Below the pieces are notes generated by a model. That model did not search any database. It saw nothing but the letters and a program-made list of their open reading frames with translations, and had not been told where the DNA came from. 7,585 nucleotides of DNA from an uncultured Clostridia bacterium (GTDB lineage: Bacteria; Bacillota_A; Clostridia; TANB77; CAG-508), in NCBI GenBank assembly GCA_947624715.1, contig CANQLO010000050.1:1-7585 (forward strand), given 5' to 3'. Each line of letters starts with the position of its first letter. Positions within the stretch are counted from its first letter, which is position 1. The position numbers were made by a program, and so were the translations under genes. Shown piece by piece: positions 1-7,585 of this stretch.

Positions 1-593
1 ACTTGGAACACAATTAAACCATCTTTTTCATCAACTGCAACTGGTTTCTTTGTTTTAGCACCAGTTCCCTTAAGTTCACACTTAACAGTGCCCTTAGGTT
101 GTCCTTTTGCCTCTTCAATATAAAGTGGCAAGAAATTTCCTGTGTTCTCATCAGATTTACTTGAAAATTCTGTCCAATTTTTCACATGTTTCAAAGCACC
201 TGTTACATTATCACCATCTAAACTTGCATTTTCACATAAATCTTGAACAGTTTTTTCACCTAAATTTAAAGAAGTTTCCCCACTTGGAATACTTACTTTT
301 ATGTCATCTTTAATTATAGTAAGACTAAAATCAGTTGATTCTTTTTCTTTACTATTTTTATCAGTAACCTTTACTTTAGCTGTATAAGTTCTTGTTTCTG
401 TAAGGTTTTCCTTAAGCTTTACTTTTGTTTCTTCAACTTTAAACTTATCAGCATCTGTACCAGTTAATTCATAAGAATAAGGCTCTGTTCCACCATCTAC
501 AACAACAGAACCTATTTCCTTATCGGTTACTGCATCTGATACTTTTAATGATTCAGATGTAATATTAACTGTTACAGAGTTAATATCGCCCAT
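1..593 (-). CDS. Ig/cadherin-like capsid extension or head decoration protein (partial, 3' end outside window)
   Basis: The frame is open from 593 to the left edge (197 codons seen, no stop). Residues 1-95 look like one bacterial cadherin/Ig-like beta-sandwich: a Thr/Val-rich start, a TDADKFKVE stretch, then YTAKVKVTDKN and a closing FSLTI strand. Residues 96 onward (PSGETSLNLGEKTV, later WTEFSSKSDENTGNFLPLYI and DEKDGLIVFQV) resemble, from memory, decoration/head-fibre domains that follow phage capsid genes. It directly follows the capsid gene in the +1 frame. The only plausible start, ATG at 593, has no ribosome binding site at normal distance (AGGAG lies about 24 nt upstream) and sits inside a small hairpin. 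The frame is open back to 620, so I infer synthesis mainly as a capsid fusion through a frameshift at 604-609. The role would be display on the outer head surface, perhaps binding host surface glycans. The family call is moderate; the reading frame is certain. Confidence 0.75.
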   Translation of the reverse strand, partial: MGDINSVTVNITSESLKVSDAVTDKEIGSVVVDGGTEPYSYELTGTDADKFKVEETKVKLKENLTETRTYTAKVKVTDKNSKEKESTDFSLTIIKDDIKVSIPSGETSLNLGEKTVQDLCENASLDGDNVTGALKHVKNWTEFSSKSDENTGNFLPLYIEEAKGQPKGTVKCELKGTGAKTKKPVAVDEKDGLIVFQ

Positions 594-609
594 TGTGGGC
601 TCACTAGGG
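588..609 (-). promoter_or_regulatory. Candidate +1 programmed frameshift site (CCC-TAG plus downstream hairpin)
   Basis: On the minus strand the capsid gene ends ACA-CCC-TAG (CCC 609-607, TAG 606-604). If the proline tRNA on CCC moves one base to CCT, reading continues AGT-GAG-CCC-ACA-ATG-GGC without a stop into the Ig-like frame, giving a junction TP-SEPTMGDINS. Three nucleotides after the stop comes a perfect 5-bp hairpin, GCCCA-CAA-TGGGC (600-588), that could pause ribosomes. Slippage at a proline codon ending the capsid gene is known from Listeria phage PSA, and frameshift-appended Ig domains are common in phages. No protein evidence is available here. Confidence 0.6.
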
Positions 610-1791
610 TGTTTGCTCTCCTACAGTTTTAACAGTAATATAAGCAGGATCTACTTTTGAAATGTCTAATACAATAGCTGATGTATTATCTTCAGCTTTT
701 CCAAATCCAAACATTTTTGACTTATAAACTCTTTTATCTTCTAAAAATTTAAACTCATCACTATATTCTAATGATGCATTTTTAGAAGCACCTACTCCAA
801 AGAAATATTCTGGTAAAATACAAAGAATTGCCTCACCTTCATCTAATACATTAGATTGAATAACTTCTGTTGGGAATGGGAATAAGTTATTTTTATAAGT
901 TCCATCAGCTGCTTGAACAGTTGTAGCTGGAATAATTTTCTTTAAGTAATCAATAGGATTAACTATTAATTGTACTTCTACAAGTTTTCTAATTTTGTTG
1001 TTCTCTTTCTTAACTAAATGATCAGCAATTAATGAACAATAGTCTTTAATTGAGAAATTTGTAACAGTTATTTTTGATTTTTCAGGATATCCAGTTTCTT
1101 CATTTACTGATACTCCTTTATGAACATCTCTATTTAATCCAACAGGTTCTCCTTTAACACCTTTTCCTTTAAGGATACCAAATTCTAATCCTGCTGCTAA
1201 AGCTTCTTTTAAGATAGTTCTAACATAACTGTCTAAGAAAACTGGACCTAATTCTAGCATATCTAATGCAATTACAATAAATGCACTAAGTTTGCCTTGA
1301 ATAATATCTATGCTCTTGAAAGAACTTTCAATTTGTTTAGTAATTTCAGCATTGATTTCTCCCCAGATAGCCTTATCAGCTGTATGGTCATTTAATAACC
1401 ATTTAGTTAAATATTTAACATCTTTAAAATTAATTCTACTTAATAGTGGATGTTCATCTACTAAATCTTTATATACATCTTCGTAAATTGTTTCTGGCAT
1501 TCCACCATCAGTTTTAATTAAATCTTCTAAAGCTTGTTTTGGATTACTAGATTTTGCCGTTTCAATAAACTTCTCATAAAATTTCTTTTCTTCACTTGTA
1601 AGGACTCTATATCCTCTTTCAGATAATATTTTTTTGTCGTTAGATTCAATAACTGCTTTATAATCACTTTCCATCTTCTTCACTAAAGTTGTATGGAAAT
1701 CTTGAAATGCAGATTGAATCTTCTTGTCATCTCCACTTTTAATGGCATCCATTATAGCATTTGAAAACTTTTGTTCTTCATCAAAATTCAT
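604..1791 (-). CDS. Major capsid protein, HK97 fold
   Basis: This 395-residue protein should form the hexamers and pentamers of the icosahedral head. Residues 1-95 are charged and predicted helical (SEEKKFYEKFIETA), fitting the N-terminal delta/scaffolding domain that HK97-type proheads remove by proteolysis. Residues 112-122 (DEHPLLSRINF) and the stretch EFGILKGKGVKGEPVGL (203-219) match the N-arm and P-domain patterns typical of the phage_capsid family. Its length is normal for a capsid that carries its own delta domain, and no separate scaffold gene is seen. The start ATG at 1791 overlaps the protease stop (ATGA, 4 bp) and has GGAG 8 nt upstream. The gene follows portal and protease in standard order. 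It ends at CCC-TAG, where a fraction of ribosomes may shift +1 into the downstream Ig-like frame, giving a long minor form. Confidence 0.9.
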   Translation of the reverse strand: MNFDEEQKFSNAIMDAIKSGDDKKIQSAFQDFHTTLVKKMESDYKAVIESNDKKILSERGYRVLTSEEKKFYEKFIETAKSSNPKQALEDLIKTDGGMPETIYEDVYKDLVDEHPLLSRINFKDVKYLTKWLLNDHTADKAIWGEINAEITKQIESSFKSIDIIQGKLSAFIVIALDMLELGPVFLDSYVRTILKEALAAGLEFGILKGKGVKGEPVGLNRDVHKGVSVNEETGYPEKSKITVTNFSIKDYCSLIADHLVKKENNKIRKLVEVQLIVNPIDYLKKIIPATTVQAADGTYKNNLFPFPTEVIQSNVLDEGEAILCILPEYFFGVGASKNASLEYSDEFKFLEDKRVYKSKMFGFGKAEDNTSAIVLDISKVDPAYITVKTVGEQTP

Positions 1792-2645
1792 TTTAACATC
1801 TCCTTTTCTAAATTTTTTAAGAACAAAGCAACCATTTTTATTGCTTTTTCATTAGGATTTTCCACACCATCTACATTATCTGATTCTTTCATTTCTTCAT
1901 CACTTGTTTTATCTGAATTCGTATCAACATTCAAATTTTCTTCTTGATTTGAATTATCTTTTTGTTCTTCTTCATCTGTAGAAGAAACTTCAAAAGTTGA
2001 ATTCGAATTACATTCATCTTTAACATTCAAATTTAAAGCCATGTTAATTATTTTTTTCTTAACACTCTGACTTGCATGTTCTTCTTCGCCATCTTCTTCA
2101 TTTGATGTTGCAAAGCCCATCTCTAAAGCTTCTTGAGGTGATATCCAAGTTTCATTATCTAATAATTCTTTTAATCTTTCCAAAGTAATATTTACATGTT
2201 CCATGTAAGCATTTATAGAACATTGACCAATTTTATCTAAATCTTCGGCTTGTTTTCTTAATTCAGAAGAATTACCAACAATAAAAACATATGGATTATG
2301 AATCATTAAACATGAAGTTGTTGGCATAATTCTTTCATCTCCAGCCATAAATATTACACTTGCTATTGAACAAGCAAAACCATCAACATGTGTTCTAATT
2401 TTAGCCTTATGTCTTTTCAAAGCATTATATATTGCTAAACCTTCGGCAACTTCTCCTCCATAAGAATTTATATAAACATCTATAACACTTACATTACCCA
2501 ATTCTTCGAGTTTCTTAGATAAGAGATAACTAGACATTTCTCCAGCTGGCTCATAAGCAAAAGAGCAAATATCACCAAAAATATTAAGAACAGCACTATC
2601 TTCATTTTGAACTAAAGAGTAATACATCTTATTTTTATTATTCAT
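1788..2645 (-). CDS. ClpP-like (S14) prohead maturation protease
   Basis: The product is a serine peptidase of the ClpP/S14 family, expected to trim the capsid delta domain inside the prohead. Counting from ATG at 2645 (285 residues), the nucleophile is Ser93 in GFACSIASVIFMAG and the histidine is His116 in SCLMIHNP. The third ClpP catalytic residue aligns with Glu165 in NETWISPQEALEMGF rather than Asp, which I recall as usual in phage members. The ClpP core ends near residue 180. An acidic, Asn/Glu/Ser-rich low-complexity stretch of about 80 residues follows, then a short basic amphipathic end (KMVALFLKNLEKEMLK); this tail might assist scaffolding or bind the capsid. I chose ATG 2645 over the GTG at 2654 because GGAGG lies 8 nt before the ATG and the GTG falls inside that signal. 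It overlaps the portal stop by 8 bp and the capsid start by 4 bp. Confidence 0.9.
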   Translation of the reverse strand: MNNKNKMYYSLVQNEDSAVLNIFGDICSFAYEPAGEMSSYLLSKKLEELGNVSVIDVYINSYGGEVAEGLAIYNALKRHKAKIRTHVDGFACSIASVIFMAGDERIMPTTSCLMIHNPYVFIVGNSSELRKQAEDLDKIGQCSINAYMEHVNITLERLKELLDNETWISPQEALEMGFATSNEEDGEEEHASQSVKKKIINMALNLNVKDECNSNSTFEVSSTDEEEQKDNSNQEENLNVDTNSDKTSDEEMKESDNVDGVENPNEKAIKMVALFLKNLEKEMLK

Positions 2646-3921
2646 TGTTACCACCTCCCTTCTTTGTACTATCTAAATCATTATTTGAATTATTTGTAGA
2701 GGTATTATCATTATTACTAAAATTTTCATCTTCAACAAAAGTATTTGCATTTTCATTGTTATTGTTGTTAACTGCTTCCATCATTTCTTCAATCTTAGAA
2801 TAATTTTTTGTCATCCAATATTGTTTAGAAAATTCCGTATTTATTATTGGAAGATTTATCATTTTTCTTACTTCATCGATATTAGAAACTCCGTTAGAAA
2901 TTAATTTTTCAACTCCGTTAGCTATATCAAAAATATCTTTGTAATTGATAGATGATATATCAACTTCGACTTTATTATTGGCCAAAATCTCTGCTTCCGT
3001 AAACAAATTTCTTGTAATTTCTTCACCTATCATTTTAGCTATTGGTTTTACTGTAAAAGTAATAAATTGATTGGCTACTTCTTTTAGATTAGAAACATTA
3101 CCATACATCATTGATGGAGGCATTTTAAAAGTTTGAGCAACCATATCAAAAATATCTTTTCTTAAATTTCTAATATCAGATGAATCTGTTTTATCGTTTC
3201 CATTATCAAATTTTTCTAAAACATAACCATTTAATTCTGGAAAAACACCTTCATCTCCTGTTATGAAGTCTTTTAATTGTGTCTCAACATAATTTTTAAA
3301 ATCAGCTTCAAAATTTGGCTCTCCTTGTTTCATGACATCAACTTTTAATTTCCATTTATTATTTATTGATTTTTGATAAACTTTCATTGCATCTGAAACC
3401 ATTTTTTTATACTTATCATTAATTGAATCTAAAATTGATTTTACTTTTTCATCATCTAATTCAAAATAAAAAGAAGTCTCTCTTGTAAACCTCTCTTTTA
3501 TACAGTGATTTTGAATAGTTACATTGTCAAACTCATATCCCAAAATAGAATCATTTGCTAAATTATAACTACTAGCAAAATATATATTATCTAAATATCT
3601 AATCACTAATGACTTACCTTCCAAAACTAATTTTTTTGTAAACATATATTTTAGTCTTGTAGCTGTATCATTAGGATTAGGATTAATATTAAGTTTATAA
3701 TATGTTCGATTTTTAACCTCTTTTTTATCGTTATCATAAATTTTAAATTCACAAGTAGAAATTGCTGAAGCTATATAAGTAGAAACTATATATAAAGCCA
3801 ATTTCATAAATTTTATTTCATTTATTTTATTGCAACAAACTGCTTTAATTTCTGCTTTATCAACCTCTTTATCTAAATAATCATATAAATTATCGTTTTT
3901 ATCTTTAGAAAATAGTCCCAT
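2638..3921 (-). CDS. Phage portal protein, HK97 family
   Basis: This 427-residue protein would form the dodecameric ring at one head vertex, the channel for DNA entry and the docking point for terminase and connector. Family patterns include an N-terminal hydrophobic helix (LALYIVSTYIASAIS, 41-55), the LNINPNPNDTAT and FTKKLVLEGKSLVI stretch (77-107), and the segment FKMPPSMMYGNVSNLKE (265-281), where HK97-type portals carry an almost identical 'PP.mlG' pattern. The region after that (VANQFITFTVKPIAKMI) corresponds to the long channel helix. The C-terminal 45 residues are asparagine-rich and low-complexity, ending KKGGGNNE; such tails are often poorly conserved. The start ATG at 3921 has AGGAGG 5 nt upstream, and that signal overlaps the terminase stop codon (TAGGAGG). 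It lies 9 nt after the large terminase and overlaps the protease start by 8 bp. Confidence 0.92.
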   Translation of the reverse strand: MGLFSKDKNDNLYDYLDKEVDKAEIKAVCCNKINEIKFMKLALYIVSTYIASAISTCEFKIYDNDKKEVKNRTYYKLNINPNPNDTATRLKYMFTKKLVLEGKSLVIRYLDNIYFASSYNLANDSILGYEFDNVTIQNHCIKERFTRETSFYFELDDEKVKSILDSINDKYKKMVSDAMKVYQKSINNKWKLKVDVMKQGEPNFEADFKNYVETQLKDFITGDEGVFPELNGYVLEKFDNGNDKTDSSDIRNLRKDIFDMVAQTFKMPPSMMYGNVSNLKEVANQFITFTVKPIAKMIGEEITRNLFTEAEILANNKVEVDISSINYKDIFDIANGVEKLISNGVSNIDEVRKMINLPIINTEFSKQYWMTKNYSKIEEMMEAVNNNNNENANTFVEDENFSNNDNTSTNNSNNDLDSTKKGGGNNE

Positions 3922-3930
3922 ATATACCTC

Positions 3931-5631
3931 CTAGAATCTTATTATTGGCATAAATTTTACTTTAGGTGTCTCCAATTCTACATCTAAAGTTAATACCATA
4001 CTATGAACAAAGGCCATGAAAGGATCTGTCTTTCTTGACTTCGGTTCTATCTTTTCATATACATAGTTATTATTTGGTCTTGGTGATAATTTTGCATTCC
4101 ATGTAGCCCAACGCATTAAAGGATCTTCTCCCCAAACAATACTATGAGTATTAAAGGCACTTGAAATAGTATTAATAGTCATCATAATATCACTTGGTCT
4201 AACTCGTTTAACTCTAGTTTTATCTTCCTCATCATAGCCTATAGCTTTCAAAGCTTTACTAATATCAGCAAATCTATAATGGTCAGCTGCTACTTTTATA
4301 ATATTATATTTTTGCCTCTGCTCTATAAGCCAATCAGTAATTAATGTTGGTCTTATTTCTGGTTCATCAACAAAAGTTAGTAAACCAGCCTTTTCCCAAT
4401 CTTTTAAAGGTACTTTGATTCTTGGTAAGTCTCTTGATTTACTGCAAACCCATGTATGTTTAATACAATAATAATTTGAATCTTTTTTAAATGTTAAACA
4501 TACTGAAGCAAAATCATCAAATGTAGAAAAGTCTATACCAGCTACACATTTCATTCCAGTTAAATCCGGTATTTTTCTTTCAACAATATTTCCATCTGAA
4601 TCTTCCTCTTGACCTGTTGCTAATATATTTTCCCAAGATGTTACTTGATTTTCATTTGCCATTTGAGGCATATTCATTCTTTTAGTCATGAATGAAGAAT
4701 TACCAATAGGATCCATAACATAATCATTGTACTCTTTTTTCATTTCTTCTAATAAACTTATTCGATATTCAAGAGAAGGATTAGCTTTTTCCCACATTTT
4801 AATATCATTAATTTCCTTCTCATCATCTAATTTACACATAAAAGGTAACAAGCCATTATCAGAAGTACGGCCATATAAAATATTTAAAGATCTTTCTTTT
4901 AATTTGTCTAAAGGACCATCTCTGACATCTCCATCGGTTGTAGTTATTGTTCTTCTGGGATTATCTTTCTTACCAAGTGCTGTTGTAAATACTTTGATAT
5001 TCTCATAGTTTGTGTATGCATGATACTCATCAAAATTTACTGCACCACTCCGTAGCCCATCTTTACTTTTAGCATTATTGGTCCTAAATTTAATTGTACT
5101 ATTAGTTTTTTTGTTGGTTATTGAGGTTTTATTCCAATGAAAATTTCTTTTAAATATTTTTTTATATTCATTATTAGTTGTATTTTCCAAAATGTTATAT
5201 ATATCATCAAATGTTATCATAGCCTGCTCTTCACTTGTTGCACATATATCAATGTCATATTCTGTAATACCATGAGTAGGTGATATAGCACACCAATCTT
5301 CAAAAGCAAGATAATAGTTTTTACCTGTTCCTCTACCTGTATATATAAATAATTCTGGCCATCTTGGTAATCCATTTTGTTTAAATACACAATAATGTAA
5401 AACAAAGACAAATCTTTCCCATTCAAAAAGTGCATTTGGAAAATATTTTTCATAACTGAAATACTTATCAATTTGCTCTTCTGAATAAATAAGAATCTCT
5501 GTCTTAAATACATTTTCTAAATAATCGATTAATAATAATCGTTCTTTATTTACTACAGTTGGATTTTTTTTAATTTTATCAATATAAATTTTTACATGTT
5601 TTGGGAATGGTGTTTTATAGTTCATCTCCAT
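3931..5631 (-). CDS. Terminase large subunit (Terminase_1 type ATPase-nuclease)
   Basis: This is the packaging motor: an N-terminal ATPase pumps DNA and a C-terminal RNase H-like nuclease cuts concatemers. Counting from ATG 5631 (566 residues), Walker A is TGRGTGKN (98-105), Asn replacing the usual Ser/Thr. Walker B is AVNFDEYH (197-204) with Asp201/Glu202, and the coupling motif is TITTTDG (228-234). The nuclease has Asp367 in AGIDFST, Asp450 in AADHYRFADI and Asp536 in KTDPFMAFVHS, the expected acidic triad, so both activities look intact. Length is normal for the family. The start is uncertain: GTG 5640, ATG 5631 and ATG 5625 all overlap the small-subunit gene and none has a good ribosome binding site, implying coupling to small-subunit translation. 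I took the first ATG. It lies between the small terminase and portal genes, with the portal signal overlapping its stop. Confidence 0.93.
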   Translation of the reverse strand: MEMNYKTPFPKHVKIYIDKIKKNPTVVNKERLLLIDYLENVFKTEILIYSEEQIDKYFSYEKYFPNALFEWERFVFVLHYCVFKQNGLPRWPELFIYTGRGTGKNYYLAFEDWCAISPTHGITEYDIDICATSEEQAMITFDDIYNILENTTNNEYKKIFKRNFHWNKTSITNKKTNSTIKFRTNNAKSKDGLRSGAVNFDEYHAYTNYENIKVFTTALGKKDNPRRTITTTDGDVRDGPLDKLKERSLNILYGRTSDNGLLPFMCKLDDEKEINDIKMWEKANPSLEYRISLLEEMKKEYNDYVMDPIGNSSFMTKRMNMPQMANENQVTSWENILATGQEEDSDGNIVERKIPDLTGMKCVAGIDFSTFDDFASVCLTFKKDSNYYCIKHTWVCSKSRDLPRIKVPLKDWEKAGLLTFVDEPEIRPTLITDWLIEQRQKYNIIKVAADHYRFADISKALKAIGYDEEDKTRVKRVRPSDIMMTINTISSAFNTHSIVWGEDPLMRWATWNAKLSPRPNNNYVYEKIEPKSRKTDPFMAFVHSMVLTLDVELETPKVKFMPIIRF

Positions 5632-5971
5632 CAGAACCACTTACACTATCTGATGGTTTTAATTCCAATGATTCTAGTAATTTCGACATTTGCTGAATCG
5701 TTTTATTTAGTTCAGCAATACTATCATTTTTCTTAATACCTTTTTGACCTCCACCATTATCCCATTTAACTGTAACTCCCCTAGCCTCTATATCTGCTTG
5801 TAATGCCTTTGCTGTAGTCCAAAGGCCCATATAATTTTCTATCATATCTAAAAAATATACAGGTGCATTACCTTCTGAATCAGATATTTGTTCGACTAAA
5901 GAACTTTTAAGTTTATAGTATTGTTCTGAATCTTTAAAATCAGCTACTGTCTTAATTTTTTGTTTAGCCAT
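5615..5971 (-). CDS. Terminase small subunit, P27 family
   Basis: This 118-residue protein would recognise the packaging site and recruit the large terminase. The C-terminal half carries the P27-family signature: an insert rich in Gly/Lys (DNGGGQKGIKKND, 71-83) followed by SIAELNKTIQQMSKLLESLELKPS (84-107), the common 'NPA...LNK..K.M.KLL.ELGL.PS' arrangement. In the N-terminal half, residues 36-65 (NAPVYFLDMIENYMGLWTTA and the ADIEARGVTVKW that follows) form the central helices. The tail after 107 is short, acidic and Ser-rich. ATG 5971 has AAGGTGG about 6 nt upstream. The gene is 12 nt downstream of the HNH gene and its end overlaps the large-subunit start, the usual HNH-TerS-TerL cassette of cos phages. 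The family assignment is from motif memory; position supports it. Confidence 0.88.
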   Translation of the reverse strand: MAKQKIKTVADFKDSEQYYKLKSSLVEQISDSEGNAPVYFLDMIENYMGLWTTAKALQADIEARGVTVKWDNGGGQKGIKKNDSIAELNKTIQQMSKLLESLELKPSDSVSGSDGDEL

Positions 5972-6370: not shown

Positions 6371-6411
6371 TAAGGAATAATAGCAGATGGTGGCAAATCT
6401 ATTATCCCTTA
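6371..6411 (-). other. Leader stem-loop nearest the HNH gene
   Basis: As minus-strand RNA, 6411-6399 (UAAGGGAUAAUAG) pairs with 6383-6371 (CUAUUAUUCCUUA) over 13 bp with one G-U wobble, leaving a 15-nt loop (AUUUGCCACCAUCUG). It lies 18 nt before the HNH start. It shares four nucleotides (6408-6411) with the neighbouring long stem, so the two cannot both form completely, which would permit a switch. There is no U-tract, so it is not an obvious terminator. Confidence 0.55.
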
Positions 6412-6453
6412 TAAATAGAAAAAGACATTAATATGCCTTTCCCTATTTACAAG
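6408..6453 (-). other. Long leader stem-loop, 21 bp with tetraloop, supported by G-U pairs
   Basis: As minus-strand RNA, 6453-6433 pairs with 6428-6408 over 21 consecutive positions around the loop AUUA, with four G-U wobbles and no mismatch. Read as plus-strand RNA, those four positions would be A-C mismatches. The asymmetry suggests the element acts as RNA in the leftward transcript ahead of the HNH gene. The distal arm is U-rich (UCUUUUUCUAUUU) but has no U-run after the stem, so terminator function is possible but not clear. Confidence 0.6.
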
Positions 6454-6485
6454 TTTACGAAGTTCGTATGAAACGAATCAATAAC

Positions 6486-6515
6486 CATATAGCAAAATCC
6501 TAATATTGCTATATG
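6486..6515 (-). repeat. 10-bp inverted repeat at the likely 5' end of the leftward leader
   Basis: CATATAGCAA (6486-6495) and TTGCTATATG (6506-6515) are perfect inverted copies separated by 10 nt. If the leftward promoter proposed at 6521-6531 is used, the transcript would begin at about this hairpin, which could protect the 5' end. It could equally be a protein-binding dyad, since it touches an inverted copy of the 10-bp repeat (GATACC, 6515-6520). A smaller dyad, TACGAA-G-TTCGTA, lies at 6456-6468. Confidence 0.5.
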
Positions 6516-6520
6516 ATACC

Positions 6521-6531
6521 ATTTTAACATA
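6521..6531 (-). promoter_or_regulatory. Possible leftward promoter (extended -10) for the head operon
   Basis: On the minus strand TATGT-TAAAAT gives an extended -10 (TAAAAT at 6526-6521). No good -35 sits at 16-18 nt (nearest CTTTTA/TTTTAA), consistent with a promoter that needs an activator. The tandem 10-bp repeats at 6549-6588 lie immediately upstream, where such an activator would bind. AT-rich sequence makes chance matches common, so this is weak. Confidence 0.3.
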
Positions 6532-6548
6532 TATTCACAGTATTAAAA

Positions 6549-6588
6549 GGTGTCATTCGGTATTATTTGGTGTCTTTTGGTATCATTT
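6549..6588 (-). repeat. Four tandem 10-bp repeats (consensus AAATRAYACC on minus strand)
   Basis: On the minus strand the units are AAATGATACC, AAAAGACACC, AAATAATACC and GAATGACACC, head to tail with no spacer (plus-strand units start at 6549, 6559, 6569, 6579). ACC is invariant and most differences are R/R or Y/Y. A fifth copy in the opposite orientation (ATATGATACC) lies at 6511-6520. The 10-bp period places each copy on the same DNA face, suggesting cooperative protein binding: either small-terminase sites near cos or sites for a late-gene activator. Confidence 0.7.
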
Positions 6589-6603
6589 TATAATTACATT
6601 TAT

Positions 6604-6703
6604 CAAACCTCCCCTAACACGCACAAAAAACCGTTTTGTATTAAGGGCCCTGCGTTGCCAAGAAGGTTTGTAAAAATACCCCCATAGGGTGTGTGGGGGG
6701 TAT
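6604..6703. other. GC-rich dyad-rich island: candidate cos (packaging initiation) region
   Basis: By hand count about 47% of positions 6601-6705 are G or C, far above the surrounding DNA. It holds nested dyads: CAAACCT (6604-6610) with AGGTTTG (6664-6670); ACAAAA (6623-6628) with TTTTGT (6634-6639); the palindrome AGGGCCCT (6644-6651); and ATACCCCC (6676-6683) with GGGGGTAT (6696-6703) around 12 nt. It lies upstream of the HNH-terminase genes, where cos phages carry their cut site, and no convincing gene covers it. The cut position cannot be read from sequence alone. Confidence 0.45.
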
Positions 6704-6926
6704 AGTTTTTAATTTTTTTATTTATTTTTTTTATAAATTTGAGAAAAAAATTTTGAAATTTAAGAGAATAATTTAAAATACAAAAAAATAAATTGAAATA
6801 TAAAAAATTAAATATGTGATCTATCATTGAAGAGTGATCCAGTATGATTAAAGATTTATTTTAAAATTATTATTGCTTATAAATTAAGGATTTGAAATAG
6901 ATTTTAAAAATAAATTTAAAAAAGTA
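6704..6926. other. AT-rich non-coding stretch with repeated A/T tracts
   Basis: This stretch is almost all A and T, with many runs of five to eight A or T (for example TTTTTTT at 6713-6719 and AAAAAAA near 6744-6750), some spaced roughly one or two helical turns apart, so intrinsic bending is plausible beside the proposed cos and repeat sites. I see no gene: the one long frame here, on the minus strand, has no ribosome binding site and a low-complexity product. Confidence 0.4.
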
Positions 6927-6955
6927 TTGACATCTTACCACTTATATGATAAGAT
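6927..6955 (+). promoter_or_regulatory. Strong sigma-A-type promoter for the rightward small-gene operon
   Basis: A consensus -35 TTGACA (6927-6932) is followed after exactly 17 nt by -10 TAAGAT (6950-6955), preceded by TGA that gives an extended -10 (TG at 6947-6948). Transcription would start near 6962. The spacer and -10 lie inside the palindrome 6931-6956, so a bound repressor would block RNA polymerase. Confidence 0.8.
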
Positions 6956-6956
6956 G
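6931..6956 (+). promoter_or_regulatory. Operator-like palindromic repeat, copy 1
   Basis: Arms CATCTTA (6931-6937) and TAAGATG (6950-6956) are perfect inverted copies. With transition differences the symmetry extends inward (ATCTTACCAC against RTGRTAAGAT). The copy spans the promoter spacer and -10. Copy 2 at 6997-7022 matches it at almost every position, and such duplication is typical of repressor sites. Confidence 0.65.
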
Positions 6957-6960
6957 TATT

Positions 6961-6983
6961 TGTCAAGCGAAAAAGGCTTGATA
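6961..6983 (+). other. Hairpin at the predicted 5' end of the rightward transcript
   Basis: TCAAGC (6963-6968) pairs with GCTTGA (6976-6981) around GAAAAAG; including flanking U-A and G-U pairs the stem is 8 bp (6961-6983). It begins at the predicted transcription start and lies between the two operator copies. It may stabilise the mRNA. No U-tract follows. Confidence 0.4.
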
Positions 6984-6996
6984 AAATAATGCAATA

Positions 6997-7022
6997 TATC
7001 TTACTATTTATATGATAAGATG
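6997..7022 (+). promoter_or_regulatory. Operator-like palindromic repeat, copy 2
   Basis: Arms ATCTTA (6998-7003) and TAAGAT (7016-7021) repeat copy 1, including the central TTATATGA. Start-to-start distance is 66 bp. It repeats the extended -10 (TGATAAGAT) but has no -35, so any promoter here would be weak. It ends 8 nt before the ribosome binding site of the 48-residue gene, so a bound protein could also act as a roadblock. Confidence 0.6.
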
Positions 7023-7041
7023 AGCAAGAAAGGAGTTATAA

Positions 7042-7188
7042 ATGAAATTAAAAAGAGACATCAAGCGAATATTAAAAAAGAGTATAATAGATATTTCAAT
7101 TAAAGATTTAGAATATCTATATAACTCTCATCAAATTGCAACAATAAAGGTTGCAAATAATTGCTTAGTATTATTCAAAGAGAACTAA
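7042..7188 (+). CDS. Small basic protein, 48 residues, function unknown
   Basis: I do not recognise this protein. The frame starts with ATG 7042, with AGGAG (7031-7035) 6 nt upstream, and ends TAA at 7186-7188. Residues 1-13 (MKLKRDIKRILKK) form a strongly basic amphipathic helix. A second likely helix follows (SIKDLEYLYNSHQ) and then a short beta-like end (ATIKVANNCLVLF). Net charge is about +5, so nucleic-acid or membrane-surface contact is possible, but no classical helix-turn-helix is clear. A consensus promoter with two operator-like repeats precedes it and a strong hairpin follows 6 nt after the stop, so it is the first and perhaps mainly the only gene of that transcript. It reads away from the head operon. 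It might be the autoregulator of its promoter, an antitoxin-like or an accessory phage protein; none is demonstrated. Confidence 0.7.
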   Translation: MKLKRDIKRILKKSIIDISIKDLEYLYNSHQIATIKVANNCLVLFKEN

Positions 7189-7193
7189 GCAAA

Positions 7194-7219
7194 CCAAGAG
7201 AGAGGCTTCTCTCTCTTGG
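7194..7219 (+). terminator. Perfect 11-bp hairpin after the 48-residue gene (terminator or attenuator)
   Basis: CCAAGAGAGAG (7194-7204) and CTCTCTCTTGG (7209-7219) pair perfectly around GCTT. The tail is AACTAATTATAATATATTTT, AU-rich but without an immediate U-run, so termination may be partial, letting some transcription reach the 76-residue gene. On the opposite strand only UUU follows. It may also act as an mRNA 3'-end stabiliser. Confidence 0.55.
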
Positions 7220-7266
7220 AACTAATTATAATATATTTTAAAAAAAAAGTAAAGGAGATTGAAAAA

Positions 7267-7497
7267 ATGAAAATAGAAAATATTAAAGAATATTTAAAAG
7301 ACAAAATTAATAATAGATGGTATTTATTTGCTAAAGAGGATTATAACATTGATGGTCACTTTATAGATTGCGAGTTGTTAGATAATGACCATTTAAAAAT
7401 AACTTGGGAAGAAATGGGAAATATAAACGAGTTGATTATTGCTTATTATTGGAACTATGGATTAGAACAATTATATAATATTTGGATGGAAAGATAA
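7267..7497 (+). CDS. Small acidic tryptophan-rich protein, 76 residues, function unknown
   Basis: I do not recognise this protein. ATG 7267 is chosen because AAGGAG ends 9 nt upstream; a longer reading from TTG at 7216 has no ribosome binding site and begins inside the hairpin. The product is compact and acidic (15 Asp/Glu against 8 Lys/Arg, net about -7), with four tryptophans (18, 47, 62, 73) and many Tyr/Ile. The pattern suggests a first helix (KIENIKEYLKDKINN), beta strands around residues 18-48 (WYLFAKEDYNIDGHFIDCE, HLKITW) and a C-terminal aromatic helix (ELIIAYYWNYGLEQLYNIW). It has no signal peptide or clear membrane helix. It lies 78 nt after the basic 48-residue gene beyond a strong hairpin; TATAAT at 7227-7232 lacks a -35. 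A small acidic protein beside a small basic one allows a toxin-antitoxin, inhibitor or DNA-mimic hypothesis, which the sequence alone does not support further. Confidence 0.72.
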   Translation: MKIENIKEYLKDKINNRWYLFAKEDYNIDGHFIDCELLDNDHLKITWEEMGNINELIIAYYWNYGLEQLYNIWMER

Positions 7498-7513
7498 AAA
7501 TGGACTTTAAAAA

Positions 7514-7542
7514 TAGACTTATAAAAAAAACTATGCTAAAAT
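7514..7542 (+). promoter_or_regulatory. Weak candidate promoter before the third rightward gene
   Basis: TAGACT (7514-7519), 17 nt, then TAAAAT (7537-7542) with an extended-10 TGC. The predicted start would fall near 7549, at the ribosome binding site itself, leaving almost no leader, so the match may be chance in AT-rich DNA. Confidence 0.25.
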
Positions 7543-7558
7543 ATTAACGAGGTGACTT

Positions 7559-7585
7559 ATGGATAGCAAAGAAAAATATTTAAAA
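7559..7585 (+). CDS. Start of a further rightward gene (partial, only 9 codons)
   Basis: ATG 7559 is preceded by GAGGTGA (7549-7555), a good ribosome binding site, and reads MDSKEKYLK to the right edge of the window without a stop. It lies 61 nt after the acidic 76-residue gene in the same direction and may belong to the same operon. Too little is visible to suggest a product; the start signal is the only support. Confidence 0.5.

Follow-up and report, generated by a model that had tools for sequence, protein, structure and literature searches.

A probable programmed +1 frameshift at the end of a phage capsid gene and the candidate recoding cassette that accompanies it

How an open reading frame that overlaps the end of a phage capsid gene, displaced by one base and lacking a usable start, comes to be expressed is the question raised by this locus. 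The window considered here is the whole stretch of 7,585 nt that was analysed (an uncultured Clostridia bacterium, contig CANQLO010000050.1). The original prediction, drawn from the letters of the window alone, was that the capsid is extended by +1 slippage at a terminal CCC-TAG. Comparison with other genomes points the same way: some copies of the shell protein very probably acquire an additional surface domain, owing to a one-base forward slip of the ribosome at the last codon.

The minus strand of the window is a tailed-phage head module that comprises an HNH endonuclease, the terminase subunits, portal, protease, capsid and the +1-frame ORF (Table 1). The capsid is HK97-type by its match to PF05065 (E 1.1e-8, 35.3 bits against a cut-off of 24.2 bits), matches the major head protein family phrog_10 at E 7e-30 and is 33% identical over 99% of its length to Cps of Listeria phage PSA; against solved structures it gave no match at E 0.01. 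Rfam and PADLOC searches gave no match. Positions 6380-7585 are AT-rich, with a small ORF on the plus strand (7261-7497) that diverges from the head module, and have no PHROG, PADLOC or over-cut-off Pfam match.

Table 1. Features of the window, with positions, strand and basis of assignment
Feature	Positions	Strand	Basis
Extension in the +1 frame, S-E-P-T-M-G-D..., cut by the window edge; PKD/cadherin/Ig-like N-terminal domain and phrog_31690 beta domain	3..605	-	Pfam, PHROGs
Possible second stem adjoining the first	561..587	-	RNA folding; helix 2 of the type-I alignment
Probable stimulatory hairpin GCCCA-CAA-TGGGC, 6 nt past CCC	588..600	-	sequence, RNA folding
ATG in the +1 frame, only start codon listed past the slip site; within the hairpin, without Shine-Dalgarno, unconserved	591..593	-	sequence
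UAG stop in the A site; UGA 603-601 next in the same frame	604..606	-	sequence; TAG frequency at CCC|stop junctions
Major capsid protein, HK97-type, PSA Cps family, 395 aa, ends ACA-CCC-TAG	604..1791	-	Pfam PF05065, phrog_10
CCC slip codon (putative P site), would re-pair on CCT in +1	607..609	-	sequence; in 38/38 +1 junctions; aligned with the PSA slip codon
Mosaic breakpoint: capsid DNA resembles L006 up to 631, cassette resembles L028 from 612 (ACACCC); 18 nt match neither	612..631	-	DNA comparison
ClpP-type head maturation protease	1788..2654	-	PF00574 E 2.4e-31
Portal protein	2638..3921	-	PF04860 E 1.7e-30
Terminase large subunit	3931..5640	-	PF20441 E 1.1e-13, PF03354 E 6.1e-10
Terminase small subunit	5615..5971	-	PF05119 E 9.6e-9

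On the minus strand the junction reads ACA (612-610), CCC (609-607), TAG (606-604) and a second zero-frame stop, TGA (603-601). The zero frame at the capsid 3' end is GAG CAA ACA CCC TAG TGA and the +1 reading is CAC CCT AGT GAG CCC ACA ATG GGC; the +1 frame has no stop between 620 and the left window edge, where it is cut off after 206 aa. All the sequence elements on which the original prediction was built are present, base for base. The slip from CCC to CCT, proposed as a way past the stop, would bypass both TAG and the TGA behind it. The 5-bp hairpin, 3 nt past the stop, is formed by GCCCA (600-596) and TGGGC (592-588) around CAA (595-593), and the sole downstream ATG (593-591), 10 nt past the stop, does lie inside it and has no Shine-Dalgarno match of at least 4 bases.

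Several other routes past the stop were considered. Readthrough of UAG in frame is rejected because TGA 603-601 follows at once in the zero frame. The slip site has no homopolymer run longer than CCC, which speaks against transcriptional slippage here, and the -1 frame, as would be used by a shift of the T3 or A2 type, is open only from -22 to +32 nt around the stop. A phage frameshift-suppressor tRNA was sought in the window with ARAGORN and none was found; the tRNA-Pro(UGG) genes at two other loci, L045 and L043, are ordinary. A possible upstream stimulator, AGGAG placed 8 nt before CCC in the window, was dismissed because the 24 nt displayed for each of the other 29 junctions contain none. 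In RF2-type +1 frameshifting a Shine-Dalgarno sequence stands close upstream of CUU-UGA, whereas the window has CCC-UAG and its AGGAG is unshared among the 29 junctions compared. To our knowledge, few cases of natural bacterial +1 frameshifting outside RF2 have been described.

A protein search with the extension gave 88 relatives, 14 of which have an HPSEP-like start and three HPSPAT, corresponding to the +1 reading of ACA-CCC-TAG. A genome scan whose query aligned the window extension to 27 of these relatives gave 39 loci, all in MAGs of uncultured Bacilli or Clostridia whose isolate names, 'Lapin-...', point to rabbit gut; further whole-genome scans yielded more distant relatives. With a profile of the C-terminal domain, 71 domain ORFs were obtained over the loci once ORFs with the same DNA across the domain's first 150 nt had been removed, and these divide into 40 in the +1 frame, 21 in the -1 frame, eight in frame and two without an upstream ORF. 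L041 and L156, in which the domain is far inside a long in-frame ORF, were dropped from the +1 class, leaving 38 junctions; from the -1 class L145, L155 and the second L051 ORF (domain deep in an in-frame ORF) and L168 (own start and ribosome-binding site) were dropped, leaving 17. A non-redundant set contains 32 of the 38 +1 junctions (85% identity over 120 nt).

Loss of the CCC codon or of frame continuity in relatives had been named as the outcome that would count against slippage. When this comparison was run, CCC was found at the slip position in all 38 non-identical +1 junctions, directly before TAG or TAA in 36 and as CCC-AGT|TAA in two. The stop is TAG in 30, TAA in eight and TGA in none (30, six and none at the 36 CCC|stop junctions), and the preceding codon is ACA in 20 of the 38. 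TAG thus ends 30 of 36 CCC|stop junctions against 68 of 321 other ORFs (Fisher p 2e-13, related sequences being counted as independent). UAG at the slip site had been expected to be a variant of the PSA case; it does differ from the UGA and UCC of PSA, but at these frequencies it is no oddity. Across the first 39 loci and the window CCC accounts for 103 of 131,246 codons (0.8 per 1000), and all 28 ORFs of at least 150 aa that end in a Pro codon there end in CCC before TAG or TAA. The conservation of CCC-TAR may in part be due to shared ancestry of the cassette.

A sequencing or assembly frameshift, or decay of a former in-frame fusion, would produce a similar picture at a single locus, and in-frame fusions of the C-terminal domain do exist (e.g. 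L039, L046 and L054). Such an origin is scarcely conceivable given that 38 non-identical loci share the +1 junction and its slip codon, nearly all of them with a stem, and that the extension has a median dN/dS of 0.24 over the 430 pairs with dS below 1.2 (maximum 1.09). For the window against L028-L031 the values are 0.15-0.29. By these ratios, the extension is evolving as a protein under purifying selection.

Alternatively, the extension could be a separate gene, translated from ATG 593 or by termination-coupled reinitiation to give a free decoration protein. Besides the ATG 10 nt past the stop in the window, many database relatives start with MAIPS..., apparently called from a GTG inside the type-II hairpin, and a free gene with the C-terminal domain is found at L168 behind GGAGG-N6-ATG. 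Set against these, 33 of the 38 junctions have no ATG between slip site and domain and 12 no start codon whatever; a start behind a Shine-Dalgarno match of at least 5 bases is found in none of the 38 extensions and behind one of 4 bases in a single case. Among 287 long ORFs of the same loci, a more permissive control in which any start in the first 60 codons was accepted, 148 have a match of at least 5 and 207 of at least 4 bases. ATG 593 is peculiar to this phage, the other 9 of the 10 type-I junctions (eight loci plus L209) having other codons at that place. Independent initiation at Met593 is therefore disfavoured, as had been argued from the window, and a separate gene, which would leave the constant rare CCC, the constant +1 relation and the stem position unexplained, is very improbable. 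With CCC at every site, a stem behind it at nearly all and no obvious alternative start, the comparative data strongly support a +1 frameshift at CCC-TAG.

Structured RNA is present 3' of the slip codon in the window, as in frameshifts of the PSA type. The segment 603-560 folds with -14.2 kcal/mol (z = -4.5), and none of 200 shuffles is as stable. When the best stem is sought with a start anywhere from 0 to 8 nt past the stop, it begins 3-4 nt past the stop in 34 of the 36 CCC|stop junctions, the exceptions being L053 (2 nt, same core) and L171 (1 nt, long loop). Where the junction is CCC-AGT-TAA (two cases), the stem lies 1 nt past the stop and so keeps a distance of 7 nt from CCC; the constant distance is thus that to the slip codon, not that to the stop. 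If the start is confined to 5-7 nt past CCC, a stem of at least 4 bp is found in 31 of the 32 non-redundant junctions, at 6 nt in 12 and at 7 nt in 19; L171 has none there and L139 has a weak stem only. By the same search 23 of 32 junctions score at least 14 for their stem, compared with 25 of 411 other gene ends; at a score of at least 12 the counts are 30 of 32 and 60 of 411. The 32 +1 junctions have a mean folding z of -2.44 and the 17 -1 junctions one of -0.76, as compared with 0.02 and 0.03 in the two control windows.

Whether this stem has been selected as RNA is less direct to judge, and it could be a by-product of the conservation of the linker peptides (PSxPEEG, PSPAT..KVA), slippage then requiring CCC-UAG alone. 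Core pairs hardly vary within each stem type, the linkers are conserved peptides, and L171 has CCC-TAG without the stem. Covariation within types is weak, and the near-invariant cores are of little use in deciding for or against selection: for type II the score is reached by 22 of 500 shuffles and two-sided changes are no more frequent than in shuffles (495 of 500 as high), and for type I the corresponding figures are 11 and 246 of 500. Stems of differing sequence nonetheless occupy one position, namely GCCC/GGGC, GCCAC/GTGGC, GACACGT/ACGTGTC, GCCCTCA/TGAGGGC, GCCGAT/ATCGGC and CCTGGAG/CTTCAGG, and such stems of other sequence at the same place include those of L172, L152, L157, L034 (at 9257) and L170. 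Among 11 distinct arm pairs, pairing is 0.95 with the own partner and 0.56 when arms are swapped (permutation p 5e-5), a test that leans towards pairing, since the arms entering it had been selected for pairing best. It is also precisely the arms that carry rare codons: all eight type-I rows have CCC for Pro (3.4% of Pro codons) and GGC for Gly (8.8%), and all 18 type-II rows have GCC for Ala (5%). This codon choice, to which common ancestry contributes, adds weight to selection of the stem as RNA, and a mere by-product is unlikely. The second stem of the window, of 10 bp, has 74% of cells paired over the 10 type-I junctions, and three of its 10 pairs show changes in both partners; stacking on the first stem is one possibility, a reflection of the repeated peptide another.

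The signal can also be searched for without reference to the domain. The type-II pattern, CCCTAR-N3-4-GCCAC-N3-14-GTGGC, was run over 243 genomes and a type-I pattern over 193, with the patterns reversed as control. There were 18 and 4 matches, respectively, and none for the control. Each of the 22 coincides exactly with the end of a zero-frame ORF (at least 116 aa; one runs off the contig end) and leads into a +1 ORF of 123-232 aa; those in G983, G820 and G231 had been missed by the domain search and have extensions of the same kind. In IMG/VR a variant of the type-II pattern has five matches, which are probably due to chance because none of them ends an ORF of at least 100 aa. Taking the 38 conserved junctions and the signal scan together, the junction is, as a sequence arrangement, far beyond chance.

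The likeness to phage PSA is closer than the original prediction could tell, since the capsid itself is distantly homologous to PSA Cps, and in the alignment, which finishes with ACA-CCC on ACA-CCC, the slip codon stands at the same place. The direction of the shift, the CCC as putative P-site codon with the +1 frame open across it and the stem close behind are likewise shared. PSA cps slips at ACA_CCC, and its stimulator is termed a pseudoknot in the part of PMC5009743 on this phage; in the PSA record the cps stem is 8 nt past CCC, and tsh has ACA-CCC-TGA with a stem 6 nt past CCC (the tsh codon preceding CCC is printed as AAA in that part of PMC5009743 and is ACA in the record). The published A-site codons, UGA in tsh and UCC in cps, differ from the UAG of the window capsid gene (UAA in some relatives). 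This is taken as variation and not as defining, because PSA itself uses two different A-site codons. The extension is also longer, a two-domain module of 200-plus aa against about 53 aa in PSA, and unlike in PSA the cassette sits on several gene families.

CCC is present in the last 14 codons of 3 of 14 capsid relatives from phage records (PSA, LP-030-2 and LWP01) and absent in 11. The capsid gene of Listeria phage LWP01 ends in ACA-CCC-TGA, with the +1 frame open for 157 nt past the stop and an ACCCCAG/CTGGGGT inverted repeat 6 nt past CCC (L216 2293-2456). It differs from the window in its UGA stop and short extension, and its record gives only the short form, annotated as a plain capsid protein. 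From its sequence it is a probable unannotated frameshift of the PSA type. Minor, C-terminally extended capsid or tail subunits that display a beta domain are likewise known from T3 10B, Lactobacillus phage A2 and phage Ig domains; the T3 and A2 frameshifts are -1 as treated in PMC5009743, whereas that of the window would be +1, with a common signal that appears to move with the domain.

The genes upstream of the extension are diverse. The upstream ORFs of the 38 +1 junctions form 13 BLAST clusters, part of which probably share a fold. Beyond the window's own capsid, 22 +1 upstream proteins (18 belonging to the 38 junctions and 4 found by the signal search) were scanned against PHROGs and 21 have a match, the exception being L203. 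Major head protein families matched are phrog_10, 422, 544, 1328, 212, 267, 29 and 247. A 112-aa upstream protein matches phrog_909, which is labelled major head protein, and in L065 also matches head-decoration families. The upstream protein in L034 is a major tail protein (phrog_88), with which those of L035 and L056 cluster, and in these three loci capsid and tail genes each bear a copy of the cassette, the copies being 81-88% identical in DNA. In the -1 class, 7 of 8 upstream proteins scanned are head proteins and one matches a family of unknown function; the slip sites there are A9-A11 runs in 14 of 17, AAACCCT in two and ACTTTTTAG in one.

Frameshifted phage Ig domains are explained in the 2016 review, in its section 9 (PMC5009743), by chance landing in or out of frame, and by this explanation each slip site here would have evolved locally afterwards. 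The use of other slip sites by the -1 class fits with it. The +1 junctions do not: 21 type-II junctions on different genes, among them capsid and tail genes, align from CCC on with 76% mean column identity, whereas over 351 pairs of junctions on unrelated upstream genes nucleotide identity is 0.37 per site upstream, 0.69 at ACA, 0.45 in the spacer and 0.62 at the stem start. Spacers in this profile vary in length by one, and CCC scores 1.00 by construction because junctions with another ending were skipped. In the window, the capsid DNA is 79.5% identical to L006 up to query base 1161 and the cassette 82% identical to L028 from base 1180, the first A of ACACCC, so that the match of the cassette begins at the slip site. 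L006 has the closest capsid found (78-79% identical), with a normal end and no extension. Since this capsid lacks an extension and since -1 and in-frame arrangements of the domain are found too, the cassette seems to have been gained separately and not passed down together with the capsid. The breakpoint at ACACCC, the linker DNA common to different genes and the extension-free L006 together indicate that the signal most likely came with the domain, and chance landing for each case is quite improbable.

For the +1 class, travel of the signal with the domain is accordingly the favoured reading of these sequences. It is likely, though with less confidence than the frameshift itself, that (ACA)CCC-UAR, a stem-loop 3-4 nt behind it and a display domain form a self-contained mobile recoding cassette, travelling together and able to give abundant head, decoration and tail genes of many kinds a minor extended product, with in-frame joining at CCC as the only need. 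A search of the open-access literature found no description of this cassette. According to PMC10885494, which presents a 2024 prediction tool, forward frameshifts have no general motif identified so far. The 38 sites, with one slip codon, UAR stops, one stem spacing and several gene backgrounds, form a natural series that can serve as a comparative dataset, and they bear on the question treated in that section of PMC5009743, whether frameshifted phage Ig domains stem from chance out-of-frame landings.

The extension had been described as Ig-like. An Ig-like signal is found in its N-terminal part, through weak Pfam matches only, and the description is now refined to two domains, the C-terminal one being a beta domain that matches phrog_31690 (E 1.4e-9). 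Matches to Big_3_3 are below the curated cut-off both for the window extension (E 0.026) and for P0001 (E 0.034), a database protein 99% identical to the extension and complete at 227 aa from ATG 593; the relatives P0008 and P0010 exceed the PF22352 cut-off of 27 bits with 28.8 and 32.8 bits. The predicted structure of P0001 is mostly beta strands (mean pLDDT 73.7, first 24 residues predicted poorly), and the model is consistent with two beta domains. Against solved structures the extension has only weak matches, at E 0.11 or worse, and a search for Ig homologues in phages, plasmids and IMG/VR found none. By likeness to gut-phage Ig/PKD proteins, for which the relevant part of PMC13370021 shows binding to mucus or host surfaces, a displayed adhesin may be guessed at. 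Those proteins are likewise phage-encoded PKD/Ig-type domains; as described in that part of the paper they differ in being human faecal phage proteins assayed by display on another phage. Were the domains here to bind mucus or host surfaces, the cassette could allow dosage-controlled sharing of adhesins between phages.

Taken as a whole, these comparisons make it highly likely that a programmed +1 frameshift of the PSA type at the capsid gene end gives a minor extended capsid, and that slip codon, stop, stem and extension are one recombined cassette. Most ribosomes would stop at UAG and release the 395-aa capsid. In a slipping fraction, peptidyl-tRNA-Pro(UGG) would sit on CCC while release at UAG in the A site is slow, presumably with a role for release factor 1, and the stem 6-7 nt downstream, near the mRNA entrance, would aid the slip from CCC to CCU. 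Continuation in +1 would produce a minor capsid subunit whose two-domain C-terminal extension is displayed on the virion, and most of the Ig-like protein, as originally proposed, would be this minor extended capsid. Slip codon, stop, stem and extension would have reached this capsid gene as a cassette by recombination; in related phages the recipients would have been other head genes, a decoration-like gene and genes for major tail proteins. What the data show directly is the junction sequence and its conservation, the stem, the lack of alternative starts, the purifying selection on the extension and the mosaic breakpoint; the occurrence of slippage, its rate, incorporation into the virion and an adhesive role are inferred.

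Some observations concern the tRNAs and the other arrangements of the domain. In two host MAGs the only tRNA-Pro found is UGG (1 of 34 and 1 of 26 tRNAs, sets that look incomplete). The tRNA-Pro(UGG) genes mentioned above, L045 1089-1164 and L043 1718-1793, are several kb upstream of cassette-bearing head genes. That of L045 is, by eye, about 1.2 kb upstream of an HNH-like ORF, and because of this adjacency the phage may itself carry a tRNA that reads the slip codon. At L027 (4090-4483) a capsid relative combines the CCC-AGT-TAA slip form with another +1-frame extension, which matches HeH/LEM (E 1.2e-11) and, below cut-off, Big_2.

The C-terminal domain lies in the -1 frame behind 9-11 A in L040, L042, L047, L048, L051, L052, L057, L058, L064 (two), L153, L174, L178 and L179; these could use either -1 ribosomal slippage or transcriptional slippage. 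Junctions of the -1 class without an A-run are L144 1499 and L146 1493 (A_AAC_CCU before UAA, genome G542) and L138 1466 (UUU before UAG, genome G116). In-frame fusions of the C-terminal domain are found in L039, L046 (2972-3988), L048 (8335-9390), L051 (8335-9387) and L054. The in-frame partner in L048 and L051 resembles P0046 (tail tube PF04630, below cut-off), and the head gene there uses the -1 form, while L046 has a +1 capsid in addition to its in-frame fusion.
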